Below are positions 7,195-27,204 of a stretch of 35,042 bases of DNA, one piece after another. The DNA comes from Verrucomicrobiales bacterium (lineage in GTDB: Bacteria > Verrucomicrobiota > Verrucomicrobiia > Limisphaerales > SXTU01). The translations under genes and the position numbers were made by a program. The notes under the pieces are model-generated. The model was not told where the DNA came from and ran no database searches. It saw nothing but the letters and a program-made list of their open reading frames with translations. The stretch's first letter is position 1. Each line of letters opens with the position of its first letter. Location of the stretch: the NCBI GenBank assembly GCA_005791875.1, contig SXTU01000251.1:1-35042 (forward strand). Reading direction: 5' to 3'.

Positions 7195-10100
7195 TCAATC
7201 CACATACACAAACTCGTTCACGTTGAGCAGCGCGCGGCAGAACTCGGGCAGCGCGGCGTTGCCGTGCTTCGCGAGGAACGTGGCGGCTTGCTGGCGCTCG
7301 TTAGCCGTGGGCGCTCGACCGAGCGTAAGCCAGACGGCGCGCTCGATTTGCTTGCCCGCATCTTCACCCGCCTCGGTGGTGACGCGGGCGGCGAGGGCTT
7401 TCGCGGTGCGCAGCGAGAAGTTGCTGTTCAACAAGTTCAGCGCCTGAGGCGCGACCGTGGTCACGTCGCGGCGGGCGCAGGAGAAGGAGGTGTCCGGCAA
7501 GTCGAAGACTTGCAGGAACGGCAGGGGCACGCAGCGCTTCTGGATGAGGTAGAGCGAGCGCACGTCGCAGTCCTCCTCCTTGTCCGCATACCACCCTTGG
7601 CGGCGGCCGCTGTCCTTGCCTTCGAGGCCTTCGAGCACGCCGGGTTGGGCCTTAAGAATTTCGTCCGGTAACGGTGGCCAGAGCGGCTTGCCACCAGCGT
7701 AGGGGCGAAGCTTGCCGGAGACGGCGAGCAAGGTGTCGCGCATCGTCTCGGCGTCGAGGCGGCGGGGGGTTTGCCGCCAGAGGAGGTGGTTGTCGGGGTC
7801 GAGCCCCACACCCGTAGCAGCCGACGTGAGGAGGCTCTGACTCTTGCCTGATTTTGAAGTGAGCCTCCTCACGTCGGCTGCTACGGAAGCCTGCCGATAC
7901 GCCGCGCTCGTCACCATCAGCCGGTGCATCGCCTTCACCGACCAGCCGCGCGCGACGAACTCCGTGGCCAGCCAGTCGAGGAGCTCGGGGTGCGTGGGCT
8001 TGGGGCCGGCGTAGCCAAGGTCGTTCGGGTTCGCGAAGAGACCGGTGCCGAAGTGGTGTTGCCAGAGCCGGTTCACCAGCACGCGCGCGGTGAAGGGATT
8101 CGCCGGCGAGGCAATCCACTGGGCCAGCGCGAGCCGGCGGCCCGTGGTGTCGGCGCGCGGGGCCTTCACTTTCGCGGGGTTCGGGTCCAGCACGGAGAGG
8201 AAGCCAGGGGCAACCTCGTCGCGTGGCTCGGTGAAGTCGCCCTGGTAGAAGAGCTTCGTCGGCTCCGCGTTGCCGTCGTTCACCGCCATCGCGACAGTGA
8301 AGGCGCGCTTTTGCTTCTTGAGCGCGTCAACCTTCGCAGTGGCTTCAGCGTGAAGTTTCTTGCCCGCGTCGTCGAGCGCGGCGAGGGCGTCCTTGTCGCT
8401 GACCTTCACCTTCACCAAGTGCGGCTCCAGCTTCTTCTTCGTGGCGTCGTCGCGCTGGGATTCGTCGGTCTTGAGCAGCTCTTGAATGTCGGCGGGTAGC
8501 TTGGCGATGCGCTCGGCACGCAGCTTCTCCCGGGCGGGCTGGAGCAAGTCGTCAACCGGCCGCTGCGCCTCGGCCACCTGTTTCTCCACGCCGACATTGT
8601 GCGCCTTGATGGCGTCCTGCTCGGGCGCGAGGTCAATGGGTTGGTCGTCGCGTGACTTCACGGCGGCGAAGAAGGCACGGAAGCGGAAGTGGTCGGCCTG
8701 CGAGAGCGGGTCGTATTTGTGGTCGTGGCAATTACAGCAGGAGAACGTCAGACCGAGGAACGCGCTACCGGTCGTGTTCACGAGGTCCGCCATCAGGTCG
8801 TTCCGTTGCTTGCGGTCCTCTTGGAAGATGCTCGCCGTGCTGTCGTAAGTGCCAAGCCGCAGAAAGCCCGTGGCGATGAGCGCATCCGCCTCGGCAGGCG
8901 TGCGCGGCGCGGCGGCGACGAGTTCATCCCCGGCAAGCTGCTCGCGGATGAAGCGGTCGTAGGGCTTGTCCTCATTGAGCGAGCGCACGACGTAATCGCG
9001 GTAGCGCCACATCTCCGGGCGGAACTCGTCGCGCTCGTGGCCGTTCGAGTCGGCGTAGCGGACGACGTCGAGCCAGTGCCGCGCCCAGCGCTCGCCGTAG
9101 CGCGGAGAGGCGAGGAGTTTGTCCACGAGATGCTCGTAGGCACCGGTGGACTTGTCGGCCACGAAGGCCCTCACTTCCTCGGGCGTCGGCGGAAGGCCGA
9201 TGAGGTCGAAGTAAAGGCGGCGGATGAGCGTGCGTGGGTCGGCTTCGGGCGAGAAGGTGAGTTTCTTCTCGGCGAGCTTGGCGAGGAGGAAGCGGTCTAT
9301 GGGATGGGAAGGATTCAGTGTCCAGTTCTCAGTTTTCAGTGGGGAAGCCTTGCTTCCAATCGCGCCTTTGCTGCCGGGCGCACTCTTCGCTGACTGAACA
9401 CTGGACACTGAATACTGAACACTTCCCCCCGGCACCTCCGGTCGCACGGGCTGCTTCAGCGACCACAGGTCCAACCGCTCGCCGCGCCAGATTTTGCGAA
9501 TGGGATTTTCTGGGTCCGTCCAGGCGTCGCCGAGCGGCTTCGTGGGCGCGGCGACTTTGAGCGCGAGTTGGCCGTTGCCGGGGGCGTAGGCGTCGAGGCT
9601 CTCTAGGTCCACGCCGAGGAGGACGCTGTCGAAGAAGGCTTCGTCGCCCTTGTCGCAAGTGGGTGCGAGGCCGGTGAGCGTGCAATCGCCAAGGTCCTTC
9701 CACAGGTCCACGGTCACGACGGTCCACGCCGTCGGCGCGGTGTCGCTCACGGAGATGGCGGCCCAGCCGGTCGTGTTCGGGCCGGCGACATAGCGGCCTT
9801 TGGGGTCTTTCGCGTCGGGCCACTTGCCGCTGCGGGCCAGCTCGATCATCACACTGCCCTCGCCGCGCTTCTTCCACGCGAGCCGCAGGAAGCGCACCTG
9901 TCCTGCCGTCGGCTGCTCGCGGACCTGGAAGTTCCAGCCCGGCACTTTCGCGGCCTCGCGCTGGAGTGGCGTCATGCCCAGCGCGGCCTTACCGCGAAAC
10001 ACGTCGTCGGTCACGAGGCGAGCCTTGCCGTTGCCGCTGGTGAGCACGCTGAGGAATTCCGCTTCGTCCTCGAAGAGAACCGCCACTGGCTCAGGCCACG

Positions 10101-10446
10101 GCGCGCCGGCCTTCACCCAGGCTTCGAGCGTGGCGATATCTTTCGCGGGCAGCTTTTCCTTCGGCGGCATCGCGAGGTCCTTCGTCGTGTGGCGGACGGC
10201 TTGGAGCAGGAGAGATTTCGCGGCGTCGCCGGGGACGAACGCGGGGCCGTGCTCGCCGCCCTTGAGCGCGGCGGCGCGGGAGTCGAGGCGGAGGCCGCCC
10301 TTCTGCTTGTCCGGGCCGTGGCAGCCGACGCATTTGCTGTCGAGGAGTGGCCGGACTTGGTCGCCGAAGCGCGCTGGGTCCGCGTGGAGTTCCCCACAAA
10401 GCAACAGCGCGCAGAGGGAAGTCCAGAAAGTTTGGGCGCACAGCAT
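7195..10446 (-). CDS. PSCyt1-DUF1549-DUF1553 (PSD1) exported cytochrome-like protein
   Basis: The 1083-residue product has a signal peptide (about 1-22) and a PSCyt1 domain with CVGCH at residues 39-43 and the GGLRLDSR and AMPPKEKL motifs. Next comes a segment of about 160 residues (roughly 130-300) that looks beta-rich and is not part of the minimal family layout. DUF1549 follows from about residue 380 (HPIDRFLLAKL, RRLYFDLIGLPPTPEEV, RWARHWLDVVRYADSNG) and includes a second CxxCH-type motif, CCNCHDHKYDP. DUF1553 closes the protein (PFTARVLVNRLWQHHFGTGL, HPELLDWLATEF, RLDAETMRDTLLAVSGKL). Two repeat elements lie in frame, at about residues 342-378 and 854-879, each between conserved blocks. 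Linked with the DUF1501 gene, it is probably periplasmic; its electron partner and substrate are unknown. Confidence 0.93.
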   Translation of the reverse strand: MLCAQTFWTSLCALLLCGELHADPARFGDQVRPLLDSKCVGCHGPDKQKGGLRLDSRAAALKGGEHGPAFVPGDAAKSLLLQAVRHTTKDLAMPPKEKLPAKDIATLEAWVKAGAPWPEPVAVLFEDEAEFLSVLTSGNGKARLVTDDVFRGKAALGMTPLQREAAKVPGWNFQVREQPTAGQVRFLRLAWKKRGEGSVMIELARSGKWPDAKDPKGRYVAGPNTTGWAAISVSDTAPTAWTVVTVDLWKDLGDCTLTGLAPTCDKGDEAFFDSVLLGVDLESLDAYAPGNGQLALKVAAPTKPLGDAWTDPENPIRKIWRGERLDLWSLKQPVRPEVPGGSVQYSVSSVQSAKSAPGSKGAIGSKASPLKTENWTLNPSHPIDRFLLAKLAEKKLTFSPEADPRTLIRRLYFDLIGLPPTPEEVRAFVADKSTGAYEHLVDKLLASPRYGERWARHWLDVVRYADSNGHERDEFRPEMWRYRDYVVRSLNEDKPYDRFIREQLAGDELVAAAPRTPAEADALIATGFLRLGTYDSTASIFQEDRKQRNDLMADLVNTTGSAFLGLTFSCCNCHDHKYDPLSQADHFRFRAFFAAVKSRDDQPIDLAPEQDAIKAHNVGVEKQVAEAQRPVDDLLQPAREKLRAERIAKLPADIQELLKTDESQRDDATKKKLEPHLVKVKVSDKDALAALDDAGKKLHAEATAKVDALKKQKRAFTVAMAVNDGNAEPTKLFYQGDFTEPRDEVAPGFLSVLDPNPAKVKAPRADTTGRRLALAQWIASPANPFTARVLVNRLWQHHFGTGLFANPNDLGYAGPKPTHPELLDWLATEFVARGWSVKAMHRLMVTSAAYRQASVAADVRRLTSKSGKSQSLLTSAATGVGLDPDNHLLWRQTPRRLDAETMRDTLLAVSGKLRPYAGGKPLWPPLPDEILKAQPGVLEGLEGKDSGRRQGWYADKEEDCDVRSLYLIQKRCVPLPFLQVFDLPDTSFSCARRDVTTVAPQALNLLNSNFSLRTAKALAARVTTEAGEDAGKQIERAVWLTLGRAPTANERQQAATFLAKHGNAALPEFCRALLNVNEFVYVD
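7812..7886. repeat. Perfect 26-bp inverted repeat, in frame inside PSCyt1/DUF1553 gene
   Basis: Arm 7812-7837 is the exact reverse complement of arm 7861-7886, with a 23-base loop. The tips contain GTAG (7814-7817) and CTAC (7881-7884), so it looks like two GTAG-headed REP units facing each other (a REPIN). The element is 75 bases, exactly 25 codons, contains no stop in the host frame and adds residues 854-879 between the conserved AYRQAS and LDPDNHLLWRQ blocks of DUF1553. Confidence 0.9.
9313..9423. repeat. Wordy inverted repeat (CAGT-type), in frame inside PSCyt1/DUF1553 gene
   Basis: The left arm (9313-9340) and right arm (9393-9423) are built of repeated TTCAGT/CCAGT words and match each other in inverted orientation, for example ATTCAGTGTCCAGT against ACTGGACACTGAAT. 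A small palindrome, GGAAGC/GCTTCC (9343-9357), lies between. It encodes Ser/Val/Gln-rich filler (residues about 342-378) before the DUF1549 domain and keeps the frame. Confidence 0.8.
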
Positions 10447-17088: not shown

Positions 17089-19005
17089 ATGTGCGCCATC
17101 ACCGGCATCGTTCACTTCGACCATCGCCCCGTCGTGGAGTCCGAGCTGGTCACGATGCGCGACGTGATGTTCAACCGCGGCCCGGAGCACGGTGGCCAGT
17201 GGCTCGGCGGACACGCGGCGCTCGGCCATCGGCGGCTGCGCATCATTGACCTCTCCCCGCTCGGCAACCAGCCGATGACCAACGAGGACTCCACCATTTG
17301 GGTCACCTTCAACGGCGAGATTTACAACTTCCAGTCGCTGCGGAAGGAGCTCGAAGCCAAAGGTCACCAATTCCGCTCGCACTCCGACACCGAGGTCATC
17401 GTCCACGGCTTCGAGGAATGGGGCGAGGGCGTCGTCGCGCGCATGGACGGCATGTTCGCCATCGGCATCTGGGACACGCGCCGGGACACCCTCTTGATCG
17501 CCACCGACCGCTTCGGCAAGAAACCCCTCTACTACTCGCAGCACGGCGCGACCGTCCGCTTCGCCTCCGACAGCAAGTCCTTCTGGTCCCTCCCCGGTGC
17601 GGCGCTCACGGTGAACCACGCGGCGATTGACTGCTACCTCCACCACCTCGCCGTCACCACGGACCACACGATTTACAACGAGGTCAGCAAGCTCCCGCCC
17701 GCGCACTTCAAGGTCTTCGAGCGCGACGCGTCCGGCGGCGTGCGCGCCCGCGAAGTGCGTTACTGGCAACCCAACTTCCGCGACAAAATTAACGTCACCG
17801 AGGCCGAGGCGCTGGAGCGCATCGACGCCGCGCTCAAGGAAGCCGTCCGCAAACGCATGATTGCCGACGTGCCGCTCGGCGCGTTCCTCAGCGGCGGCGT
17901 GGACAGCAGCCTGGTCGTCGCGATGATGAGCCAGCTTTCCAGCAAGCCGGTGAAGACGTTCAGCATCGGCTTCGAGGAACAGGACTTCTCCGAGCTGGAA
18001 TACTCCGACGCCGTCGCCGCGCGTTACAAAACGGAGCACCAGCAAATCCGCCTCAAGCCCGACGTGCTCGAAATCCTCCCGTCGCTCGTGTGGGAATACG
18101 GCGAGCCGTTCGCCGACTCCTCCGCCATCCCGACCTACTACGTGTCGAAGGCTGCGAAGGAGTTCGTCACCGTCGCGCTCACCGGCGACGGCGGCGATGA
18201 ACTCTTCGGCGGCTACGACATCGCCCGCGCGTCCTTCCACGCGATGCGTTACGAGGCGCTGATGCCCGGCTTTGTGCGCGGCCCGTTGGAACACTGGCTC
18301 TTCGCCGCCGAGCGCAGCGGTTTCGCCCAAAAGCTAAAAACTCTCGCCACCCACGCCAGCCCGGACCCCGCGCGCCGCCACGGCTACTCGATGGCCTTCA
18401 ACCAACGCCAGCGCGAGGCGCTCTACACGGACAGTTTCCGCGCGTCCCTCGGCGCGCATTGTCCGTGGCACATCTACGAGCGCCACGCGGCGGAGATGGC
18501 GGAACTGAACATCCTCGACCAAAACCTCTACCACGTCCTCATGGCCCGCCTCTCGAACGACTACCTCGTGAAGGTGGACGTGGCCTCGATGAAGGTTGCC
18601 CTCGAGCTACGCAGCCCCTTCCTCGACACCGACCTCTGCGCGCTCTCCAGCTCCCTCGACCCGTTGCTCAAGGTGAAGGGCGGCGTGCAAAAGTATCTGC
18701 CCAAGAAACTCGCCGAGCGCTACCTGCCCTGGGAAGTCATCTACCGCCCGAAGAAAGGTTTTAGCCTCCCGCTGAAACACTGGCTCCTCACCGACCTCGC
18801 CCCCGTGCTGAACCAGCTGCTCCCCGACGGCAACCTCGTGCAGACCGGCTGGTTCCATCGCGCCGAAATCCAGCGCCTCATCAGCGAGCACACGAACGGC
18901 GGGGCCCAGCACACCCACCGCCTCTGGTCCCTCCTCTGGCTCGAGCTCTGGCACCGCATCTTCGTCGAGCGCTCGATGACGGGGCGGGAGAGTTTGCGCT
19001 CGTAG
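17089..19005 (+). CDS. asnB: Asparagine synthase (glutamine-hydrolysing) type amidotransferase
   Basis: The 638-residue protein has an N-terminal class II glutamine amidotransferase domain with catalytic Cys2 (MCAITGI), FNGEIYN and HSDTEVIVH, and a C-terminal synthetase domain with the pyrophosphate loop SGGVDSS at 268-274 and TGDGGDELFGGY. The usual RGPDxxG motif reads RGPEHGG (30-36). In the classical reaction aspartate becomes asparagine. Enzymes of this length in glycan loci (WbpS and WbtH types) are instead thought to amidate sugar uronic acids. Here it is convergent with a polysaccharide cluster that contains wbpA- and wbpP-type genes, so that role is possible. The TAG stop lies in a GTAG-headed palindrome. 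Confidence 0.93.
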   Translation: MCAITGIVHFDHRPVVESELVTMRDVMFNRGPEHGGQWLGGHAALGHRRLRIIDLSPLGNQPMTNEDSTIWVTFNGEIYNFQSLRKELEAKGHQFRSHSDTEVIVHGFEEWGEGVVARMDGMFAIGIWDTRRDTLLIATDRFGKKPLYYSQHGATVRFASDSKSFWSLPGAALTVNHAAIDCYLHHLAVTTDHTIYNEVSKLPPAHFKVFERDASGGVRAREVRYWQPNFRDKINVTEAEALERIDAALKEAVRKRMIADVPLGAFLSGGVDSSLVVAMMSQLSSKPVKTFSIGFEEQDFSELEYSDAVAARYKTEHQQIRLKPDVLEILPSLVWEYGEPFADSSAIPTYYVSKAAKEFVTVALTGDGGDELFGGYDIARASFHAMRYEALMPGFVRGPLEHWLFAAERSGFAQKLKTLATHASPDPARRHGYSMAFNQRQREALYTDSFRASLGAHCPWHIYERHAAEMAELNILDQNLYHVLMARLSNDYLVKVDVASMKVALELRSPFLDTDLCALSSSLDPLLKVKGGVQKYLPKKLAERYLPWEVIYRPKKGFSLPLKHWLLTDLAPVLNQLLPDGNLVQTGWFHRAEIQRLISEHTNGGAQHTHRLWSLLWLELWHRIFVERSMTGRESLRS

Positions 19006-19147
19006 GCGCAGCCTTCAGGTTGCGAAATCAAACCTCTAGCGGCGTTGTGCGAGCGCCGAGTTGTGCAAACGGGGGTTGCCGGCCGGCGGTCACAGACCGC
19101 CACTACAGTTACAGACCGATTCGCAGGCTGAAGCCTGCGCCTACGAC
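18999..19147. repeat. Three GTAG-headed palindromes between asnB and the glycosyltransferase
   Basis: Plus-oriented: GTAG at 19002-19005 followed by GCAGCCT/AGGTTGC (19008-19023). Minus-oriented: CTAC at 19141-19144 preceded by GCAGGCT/AGCCTGC (19123-19138), and CTAC at 19103-19106 preceded by GGCGGTC/GACCGCC (19085-19101). The first and last are near-identical copies facing each other, and the TAG stop codons of asnB and of the minus-strand glycosyltransferase both come from their GTAG heads. Confidence 0.85.
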
Positions 19148-25930: not shown

Positions 25931-25949
25931 GCTGGTTCAGAAATGGGAA

Positions 25950-26090
25950 GCCACAGATGGACACAGATGGACACAGATGAACTGATAGCTATTCCGATCA
26001 TCAAACTGATTCCCCAAGCGCGTCGGCGCCAAGCGAGACAAGCCCTCGCCCTGTTTCCATCTGTGCCTATCTGTGTTCATCTGTGGCTCA
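25950..26090. repeat. CACAGATGGA-word inverted repeat between wzm and wzt
   Basis: The left arm (25950-25982) has three copies of a CACAGATGGA-like decamer; the right arm (26058-26090) is its inverted counterpart with GTTCATCTGT words. The arms are about 33 bases each and 75 apart. The wzm stop codon (TGA, 26088-26090) abuts the right arm and the left arm ends about 20 bases from the wzt start, so the element fills the gap. The repeat type (peptide ICVHLWL on one strand) is widespread in this phylum. Confidence 0.9.
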
Positions 26091-26969: not shown

Positions 26970-27016
26970 GCGGAGACGAGGCTGAACGAAGCGAGGCGAG
27001 ATTCAAGTCTGGCGCA

Positions 27017-27182
27017 CCTCTCATTAGCACCGGGCTTCAGCCCGGTGTCAGGTCGGAGCAAGGAGCAAAGCCGTTTCAACGGCTTCCCGGGGCATCCTCG
27101 GCCCACGAGGCGGAAACCGTTGAAACGGTCTCCTCGCCTGCAACGCACCACACCCGGCTGAAGCCGGGTGCTAATGAGAGGG
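27017..27182. repeat. Nested four-palindrome element
   Basis: Four hairpins are nested as two mirror pairs. Outer: CACCGGGCT/AGCCCGGTG (27028-27047) and CACCCGGCT/AGCCGGGTG (27151-27170), with flanks CTCATTAG and CTAATGAG. Inner: AAGCCGTT/AACGGCTT (27068-27085) and ACCGTT/AACGGT (27116-27129). All loops are TC or GA. The 166-base unit fills most of the gap between the TerB-like gene and wzm. No coding function is seen. Confidence 0.9.
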
Positions 27183-27204
27183 GCAGTCGAAAGCGGGAGG
27201 CAGT

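Follow-up and report, generated by a model that had tools for sequence, protein, structure and literature searches.

A REPIN carried in frame by a DUF1553 gene of a Verrucomicrobiales bacterium, and protein loops that hold different palindromes in related genomes

A protein-coding gene on contig SXTU01000251.1 of a Verrucomicrobiales bacterium carries a perfect palindrome, and we asked what kind of element this is and how a reading frame came to accommodate it. The window analysed is the whole stretch of 35,042 nucleotides from this contig. The arms of the inverted repeat 7812-7886 (7812-7837 and 7861-7886) are complementary at 26 of 26 positions and lie 23 nt apart, which confirmed the mismatch-free 26-bp arms with GTAG/CTAC tips reported in a preliminary description of the locus. 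The host gene (7195-10446, minus strand), assigned from its ORF and Pfam matches, codes for 1083 residues with DUF1549 (PSCyt2) and DUF1553 (PSD1) domains, and the in-frame site within the DUF1553 part, between AYRQAS and LDPDNHLLWRQ, was found as that description had placed it.

Arm comparison, folding and codon positions revealed that the palindrome as first delimited is a REPIN plus 2 bp on each side that match host sequence. The true repeat unit extends for 71 bp from GTAG to CTAC (7814-7884) and forms residues 855-878 of the host protein, read in frame from the minus strand; in the 75-bp version the additional CC and GG at the ends belong to codons 854 and 879, and the bases beyond GTAG and CTAC vary among the copies read. 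The unit is composed of a type A REP arm on the plus strand (7814-7837), in which GTAG is followed by an imperfect stem-loop, a spacer of 23 nt (7838-7860) delimited by arm comparison, and a second REP arm in inverted orientation on the minus strand (7861-7884), so that GTAG ends both arms. Both arms were identified by arm search and shuffled windows, and the first also by covariation; 100 shuffled windows gave an expectation of 0 chance matches to the 24-nt arm. The palindrome folds at -36.7 kcal/mol as single-stranded DNA (z -11) and at -58.5 as RNA (z -12), and an Rfam search of the window returned no family reaching the gathering threshold. With two GTAG-type REP repeats placed head to head, the window element is a REPIN.

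The window contains further inverted repeats. A second palindrome of an unrelated family lies in the same DUF1553 gene at 9310-9416 (residues 344-379, encoding QYSVSSVQ..TENWTL); among the orthologues it is present in G004, shortened in G002, replaced by a short and different sequence in G003, and the site is bare in G001. A GTAG-ended inverted pair of a different REP family (GTAGGCGCAGCCTTCAGG..) was observed at 19000-19026 and 19120-19146, and 1433-1558, 25949-26088 and 27014-27184 each hold a further long inverted repeat that differs in sequence from these, with complementarity of 90-96%.

Search of the genome of the window (G000) with the arm sequence gave 106 sites with up to three mismatches, and the reversed control pattern gave 0. 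From part of these sites (the listed C264 and C275 being left out) 69 elements were read, namely 48 head-to-head pairs, with GTAG-to-CTAC lengths of 66 to 99 bp, and 21 single arms. Three main arm types were recognized, GTAG-CAGCC..GGCTC, GTAG-GAGAC..GTCTC and GTAG-CCGCC..GGCGG, with the inner stretch GACGTGAGGA in common. Among 38 distinct arms, all picked for GTAG and this inner stretch, stem covariation was 0.256 against 0.110 in shuffles, a value reached by 0 of 500 shuffles and exceeding all six slid versions, though the patterns used to collect the arms had fixed some of the stem columns. Pairing was found in 76.8% of the stem cells of these arms, and the outermost stem pair is missing in 16 of the 38. 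A degenerate arm pattern is present in 31 of the 58 genomes of the order that were searched, G000 included, and in a named collection 78 of the 80 records with an arm among the matches listed bear Verrucomicrobiota names, counting some genera that we take to belong to this phylum. Also among the matches listed was a contig from a metagenome bin (L306) titled Klebsiella pneumoniae, which carries the otherwise verrucomicrobial repeat; this title may be wrong.

RAYT-like ORFs, found with a home-made profile grown from one RAYT, adjoin the repeat at six loci, with repeats on both sides at five of them and on one side at the sixth. The candidate of G000 lies on contig C143 (L013 1501-2270) between two REPINs and encodes some 193 residues from a start at L013:1624; its TAG stop codon is contained in the GTAG of the REP that follows. 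Functional features of RAYT (TnpAREP) proteins are an HxH motif and a conserved tyrosine, and H72, H74 and Y131 are invariant in all six candidates. A profile of the six compared with solved structures (PDB) ranked TnpArep 4er8 first (E 7e-4). Pfam Y1_Tnp scored below its cut-off in all six (best 17.4 bits against 23), one giving no match at all, and the AF2 model of the C143 protein was unusable (pLDDT 39). The C143 protein may be the one that moves the window element. A search with PF01797 gave 2 matches in G000 and 33 in 10 relatives, some of them adjoined by other GTAG hairpins. The two of G000, the Y1_Tnp genes L031 (contig C232) and L032 (contig C79), each have their own, different GTAG hairpins on both sides, a hint of several REP/RAYT systems in one genome.

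The reading of the palindrome as a mobile element is right, and its class is already known. By description, which is the only basis on which the window family was likened to the 24 families reported there, it resembles the GTAG REP dimers of Opitutus terrae (Di Nocera et al. 2013, PMC3733652) in its GTAG end, short stem-loop, head-to-head dimers and RAYT association. According to the same account, these REPs likewise belong to Verrucomicrobiota, are abundant inside genes, uvrA included, and encode 20-30 residues. The inverted doublet forming one hairpin and the association with a RAYT are also described for the REPINs of Pseudomonas fluorescens (Bertels and Rainey 2011, PMC3116915); those, however, are given as nearly all extragenic, with 14 of 1,067 16-mer occurrences overlapping genes, while 24 of our 69 elements are in genes. 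The window copy and 23 others thus depart from the extragenic position that the REP definition literally names, which does not bar them from the class because PMC3733652 lists intragenic units and counts them as a feature of GTAG repeats. In the REPtrons (TnpAREP systems) of E. coli, Stenotrophomonas and Marinomonas the repeats also adjoin the RAYT gene, and TnpAREP is reported to cleave beside the REP, with GTAG mattering for recognition or cleavage (PMC8266576); these systems were demonstrated biochemically, whereas the candidate described here is distant, lies below the Pfam cut-off and is known from its sequence.

Copies were counted as gene-borne when Pfam matches lay on both sides or spanned them, or when orthologues matched both flanks, and 21 of the 48 pairs and 3 of the 21 single arms were so placed. 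Long ORFs had supplied 37 candidates, 30 of which were run against Pfam. Four pairs (C151 16699, C187, C195 47336 and C74) and one single arm (C195 49985) in long ORFs lacked two-sided support and were not counted, and copies on C1 and C107, scanned and found near the N terminus, were excluded. Codon-usage scoring of the 240-bp flanks had been tried and proved too weak, the window copy being classed as coding on one side, and was replaced by the Pfam and flank evidence. The hosts are UvrA (three inserts), MutS, UvrD/AddA-like (two), OGG-like, TRCF, an HrpB-like helicase and HsdR, together with IleRS, ArgJ, a sulfatase, YdjM, an HI0933-like protein, four HEAT/DUF7133 proteins and five DUF1553 proteins, with our own assignments where a name goes further than Pfam.

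The preliminary description had proposed that a unit whose length is a multiple of three and which is free of stops could spread inside genes. The many further arm sites, the in-frame position and the absence of this copy from the orthologues of G001-G004 support a dispersed palindrome of mobile type that is carried in frame. Neither of the two outcomes named in that description as refuting was obtained, since the homologues read do not conserve the inserted residues and further copies are numerous. The proposed properties of the unit did not hold. The lengths of the 48 pairs fall into 7, 21 and 20 for 0, 1 and 2 modulo 3, and one of the three entry frames through the window unit contains TAG and TGA. 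Since the unit is neither a fixed multiple of three nor stop-free, the frame must be kept insertion by insertion, presumably by selection. In the gene-borne copies entry phase and length combine to hold the frame, and the stop-bearing entry frame is used by 0 of the 21 gene-borne pairs, a result given by construction, as the G000 candidates were picked as open ORFs. The independent test of frame is provided by the corresponding sites of relatives.

The DUF1553 loop was read in detail. In G000, 50 loops from YRQxS to DPxN (those in the sequence stretches read, 93 match pieces being listed genome-wide) comprised 29 bare loops of up to 11 aa, 4 intermediate ones and 17 of at least 20 aa. The loop holding the window REPIN has 28 aa against about 9 aa in bare paralogues. 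Three long loops of G000 hold the window-type REPIN with identical arms and different spacers, and other long loops contain different palindromes. Over all genomes read, with the loops of relatives mostly best matches or hand-picked, 40 of 45 long loops contain a significant inverted repeat (beating all 40 shuffles), as do 2 of 90 control windows drawn from those genes. Long loops are on average periodic at 7 bp, with identity of 0.40 at lag 7 versus 0.29 in controls. Degenerate 7-bp-repeat inserts, often accompanied by their reverse complement, were seen in DUF1553 loops (e.g. L099, L140, L153 and L156) and in ArgJ loops (L216 and L228), and some short loops contain only the direct half of such repeats.

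In G001-G004 the window protein has orthologues of 81-86% identity, all of which carry another insert in this loop, and no empty orthologous site was found among these four. The earlier statement that exactly 25 codons had been inserted therefore goes too far, given also the 71-bp unit and its variable outer bases, and a clean insertion into an intact loop cannot be demonstrated because the orthologues read hold other palindromes there. A structure model of the host protein gave confidence of about 55-63 for the insert and near 90 for its flanks, as would be expected of a floppy loop, which it does not prove.

Orthologous sites were compared for 14 of the 21 gene-borne pairs in seven genomes of the same genus, each flank being matched separately with no requirement for a single frame. 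Flank pairs below 140 bits were discarded, and one empty site (HI0933 in G005) stands outside the 69 slots obtained. An insert of at least 36 nt was present at the same place in 53 of the 69, and the intervening length was a multiple of three and free of stops in 69 of 69. Tested with 40 shuffles each, 43 of the 53 filled slots beat all shuffles as inverted repeats and ten had no significant palindrome. The flanks themselves showed an insertion of such size in 2 of 190 matches, which derive from 95 site-locus combinations, 15 of them from G000 itself, with some loci overlapping. Flank identity at filled slots had a median of 91% and was at least 85% at 43 of the 53. The contents were window-type REPINs, clearly different GTAG palindromes and palindromes of 7-bp period, often unrelated at one site; these family names rest on simple patterns, which missed a few REPINs spotted by eye.

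The gene-borne sites look like reusable permissive slots. PMC3733652 states that the REPs found in genes of a given functional category occupy differing sites, with recB of two Xanthomonas as the exception; in the sister species studied here, by contrast, unrelated palindromes fill the same sites. A likeness in behaviour is offered by the Rickettsia elements RPE-4, -6 and -7 (PMC3767692), in-frame palindromes of which different groups occupy one orthologous site and whose hosts include IleRS and the recB family; they belong to other bacteria, have other sequences, and show no RAYT link in the published account as far as consulted. In a limited literature search, nothing came up on palindromes within DUF1553 or on verrucomicrobial slots shared by palindromes without relationship. 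What appears to be new is that unrelated palindromes use the same protein loops again and again while keeping the frame.

The IleRS slot was followed across the order and beyond. One of the 64 loci (G042) was left out, its flanks lying on two contigs. Among genomes from the order's other families, 27 gave matches to both flanks, and in 18 of these the junction is only 6-21 nt; in 29 genomes of other orders it is 0-24 nt. A type A REPIN occupies it in G000 and in G035, a member of another family, and a different GTAG REPIN in G012; six other genomes carry inserts of 36 nt or more that show no significant palindrome, and in G023 the junction measures 33 nt. The inserts that are not palindromic favour a loop that is permissive in general over a strict target site. 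An MshEN domain of about 80 residues (PF05157, E ~2e-22) occupies the slot in G001 (L243) and G005 (L238), and inspection by eye showed repeat arms flanking it.

We consider it highly probable that these observations reflect the following course of events. The REPIN, in which two GTAG-type REPs lie head to head, would be a non-autonomous miniature mobile element, most likely copied or moved as a single-stranded hairpin by a RAYT, for which the C143 protein is the candidate. It would have entered a variable loop of the DUF1553 protein, probably recently, and entry phase, spacer length and junction would together have preserved the frame without a stop, so that the host gene survived and the REPIN would be translated as about 24 residues, perhaps neutrally. 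Selection would purge insertions that break genes, and gene-borne copies would therefore gather in a few permissive loops, in which different palindrome families would come and go.

Common origin is the reading against which this turnover has mainly to be weighed: each slot would have received one old palindrome, and the present contents would be its diverged or partly converted descendants. The sulfatase and UvrA2 slots do look inherited, for a type C element with similar spacers is common to G000, G005 and G010 in the former, and type A (G005) and type B arms enclose similar spacers in the latter; the orthologous DUF1553 loops of G003 and G004 also hold one kind of insert. The authors of the Rickettsia study favour common origin and leave hot spots possible (PMC3767692). 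As a general account it is nevertheless unlikely, since GTAG repeats and 7-bp-period palindromes without relationship occur at one place, and the IleRS junction is bare in most of the other-family genomes, yet filled by a type A REPIN in both G000 and G035.

That the inserts are kept for a function, as mRNA hairpins tuning expression or as loops altering the protein, is distinctly improbable, even though the hairpin is strong in both DNA and RNA folds and DNA repair hosts (UvrA, MutS, UvrD-like, OGG-like and TRCF) are frequent, with a similar bias described in PMC3733652. No sequence is common to the contents of one slot, and many relatives have bare slots, which suits a tolerated site better. 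A short, palindromic and dispersed element could also be a MITE derived from a conventional cut-and-paste insertion sequence, which would bring terminal inverted repeats and a target duplication. This origin is very improbable: a covarying stem and a GTAG end are found in each arm separately, the enzyme linked to the repeat is RAYT-like, and inspection by eye of the junctions read showed no constant duplication. Intron-like removal after transcription or bypass in translation, which inserts of 20-40 and up to about 137 residues within IleRS, UvrA and other conserved proteins might suggest, was rejected as scarcely credible, because frame and stops would then be irrelevant, contrary to the evidence from all 69 orthologous slots.

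Insertion of a RAYT-moved REPIN into permissive loops thus remains the preferred reading. A bolder version, which we put forward tentatively and hold to be somewhat less probable than its converse, is that fixed landing-pad loops in housekeeping and DUF1553 proteins swap unrelated palindromes in frame faster than their flanks diverge, and sometimes carry cargo. Slots in near-identical genes of this genus make the rate and direction of turnover measurable, which would distinguish single old insertions from sites hit repeatedly, and the linked RAYT is offered as a test object for these repeats. Loops in UvrA, MutS, IleRS and other proteins seem to tolerate 20-40 foreign residues, and the arms about the MshEN domain indicate a possible route by which repeat arms carry a protein domain into another protein. 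If the landing-pad version is true, REPINs would be more than extragenic repeats and would generate new protein loops and domain fusions.
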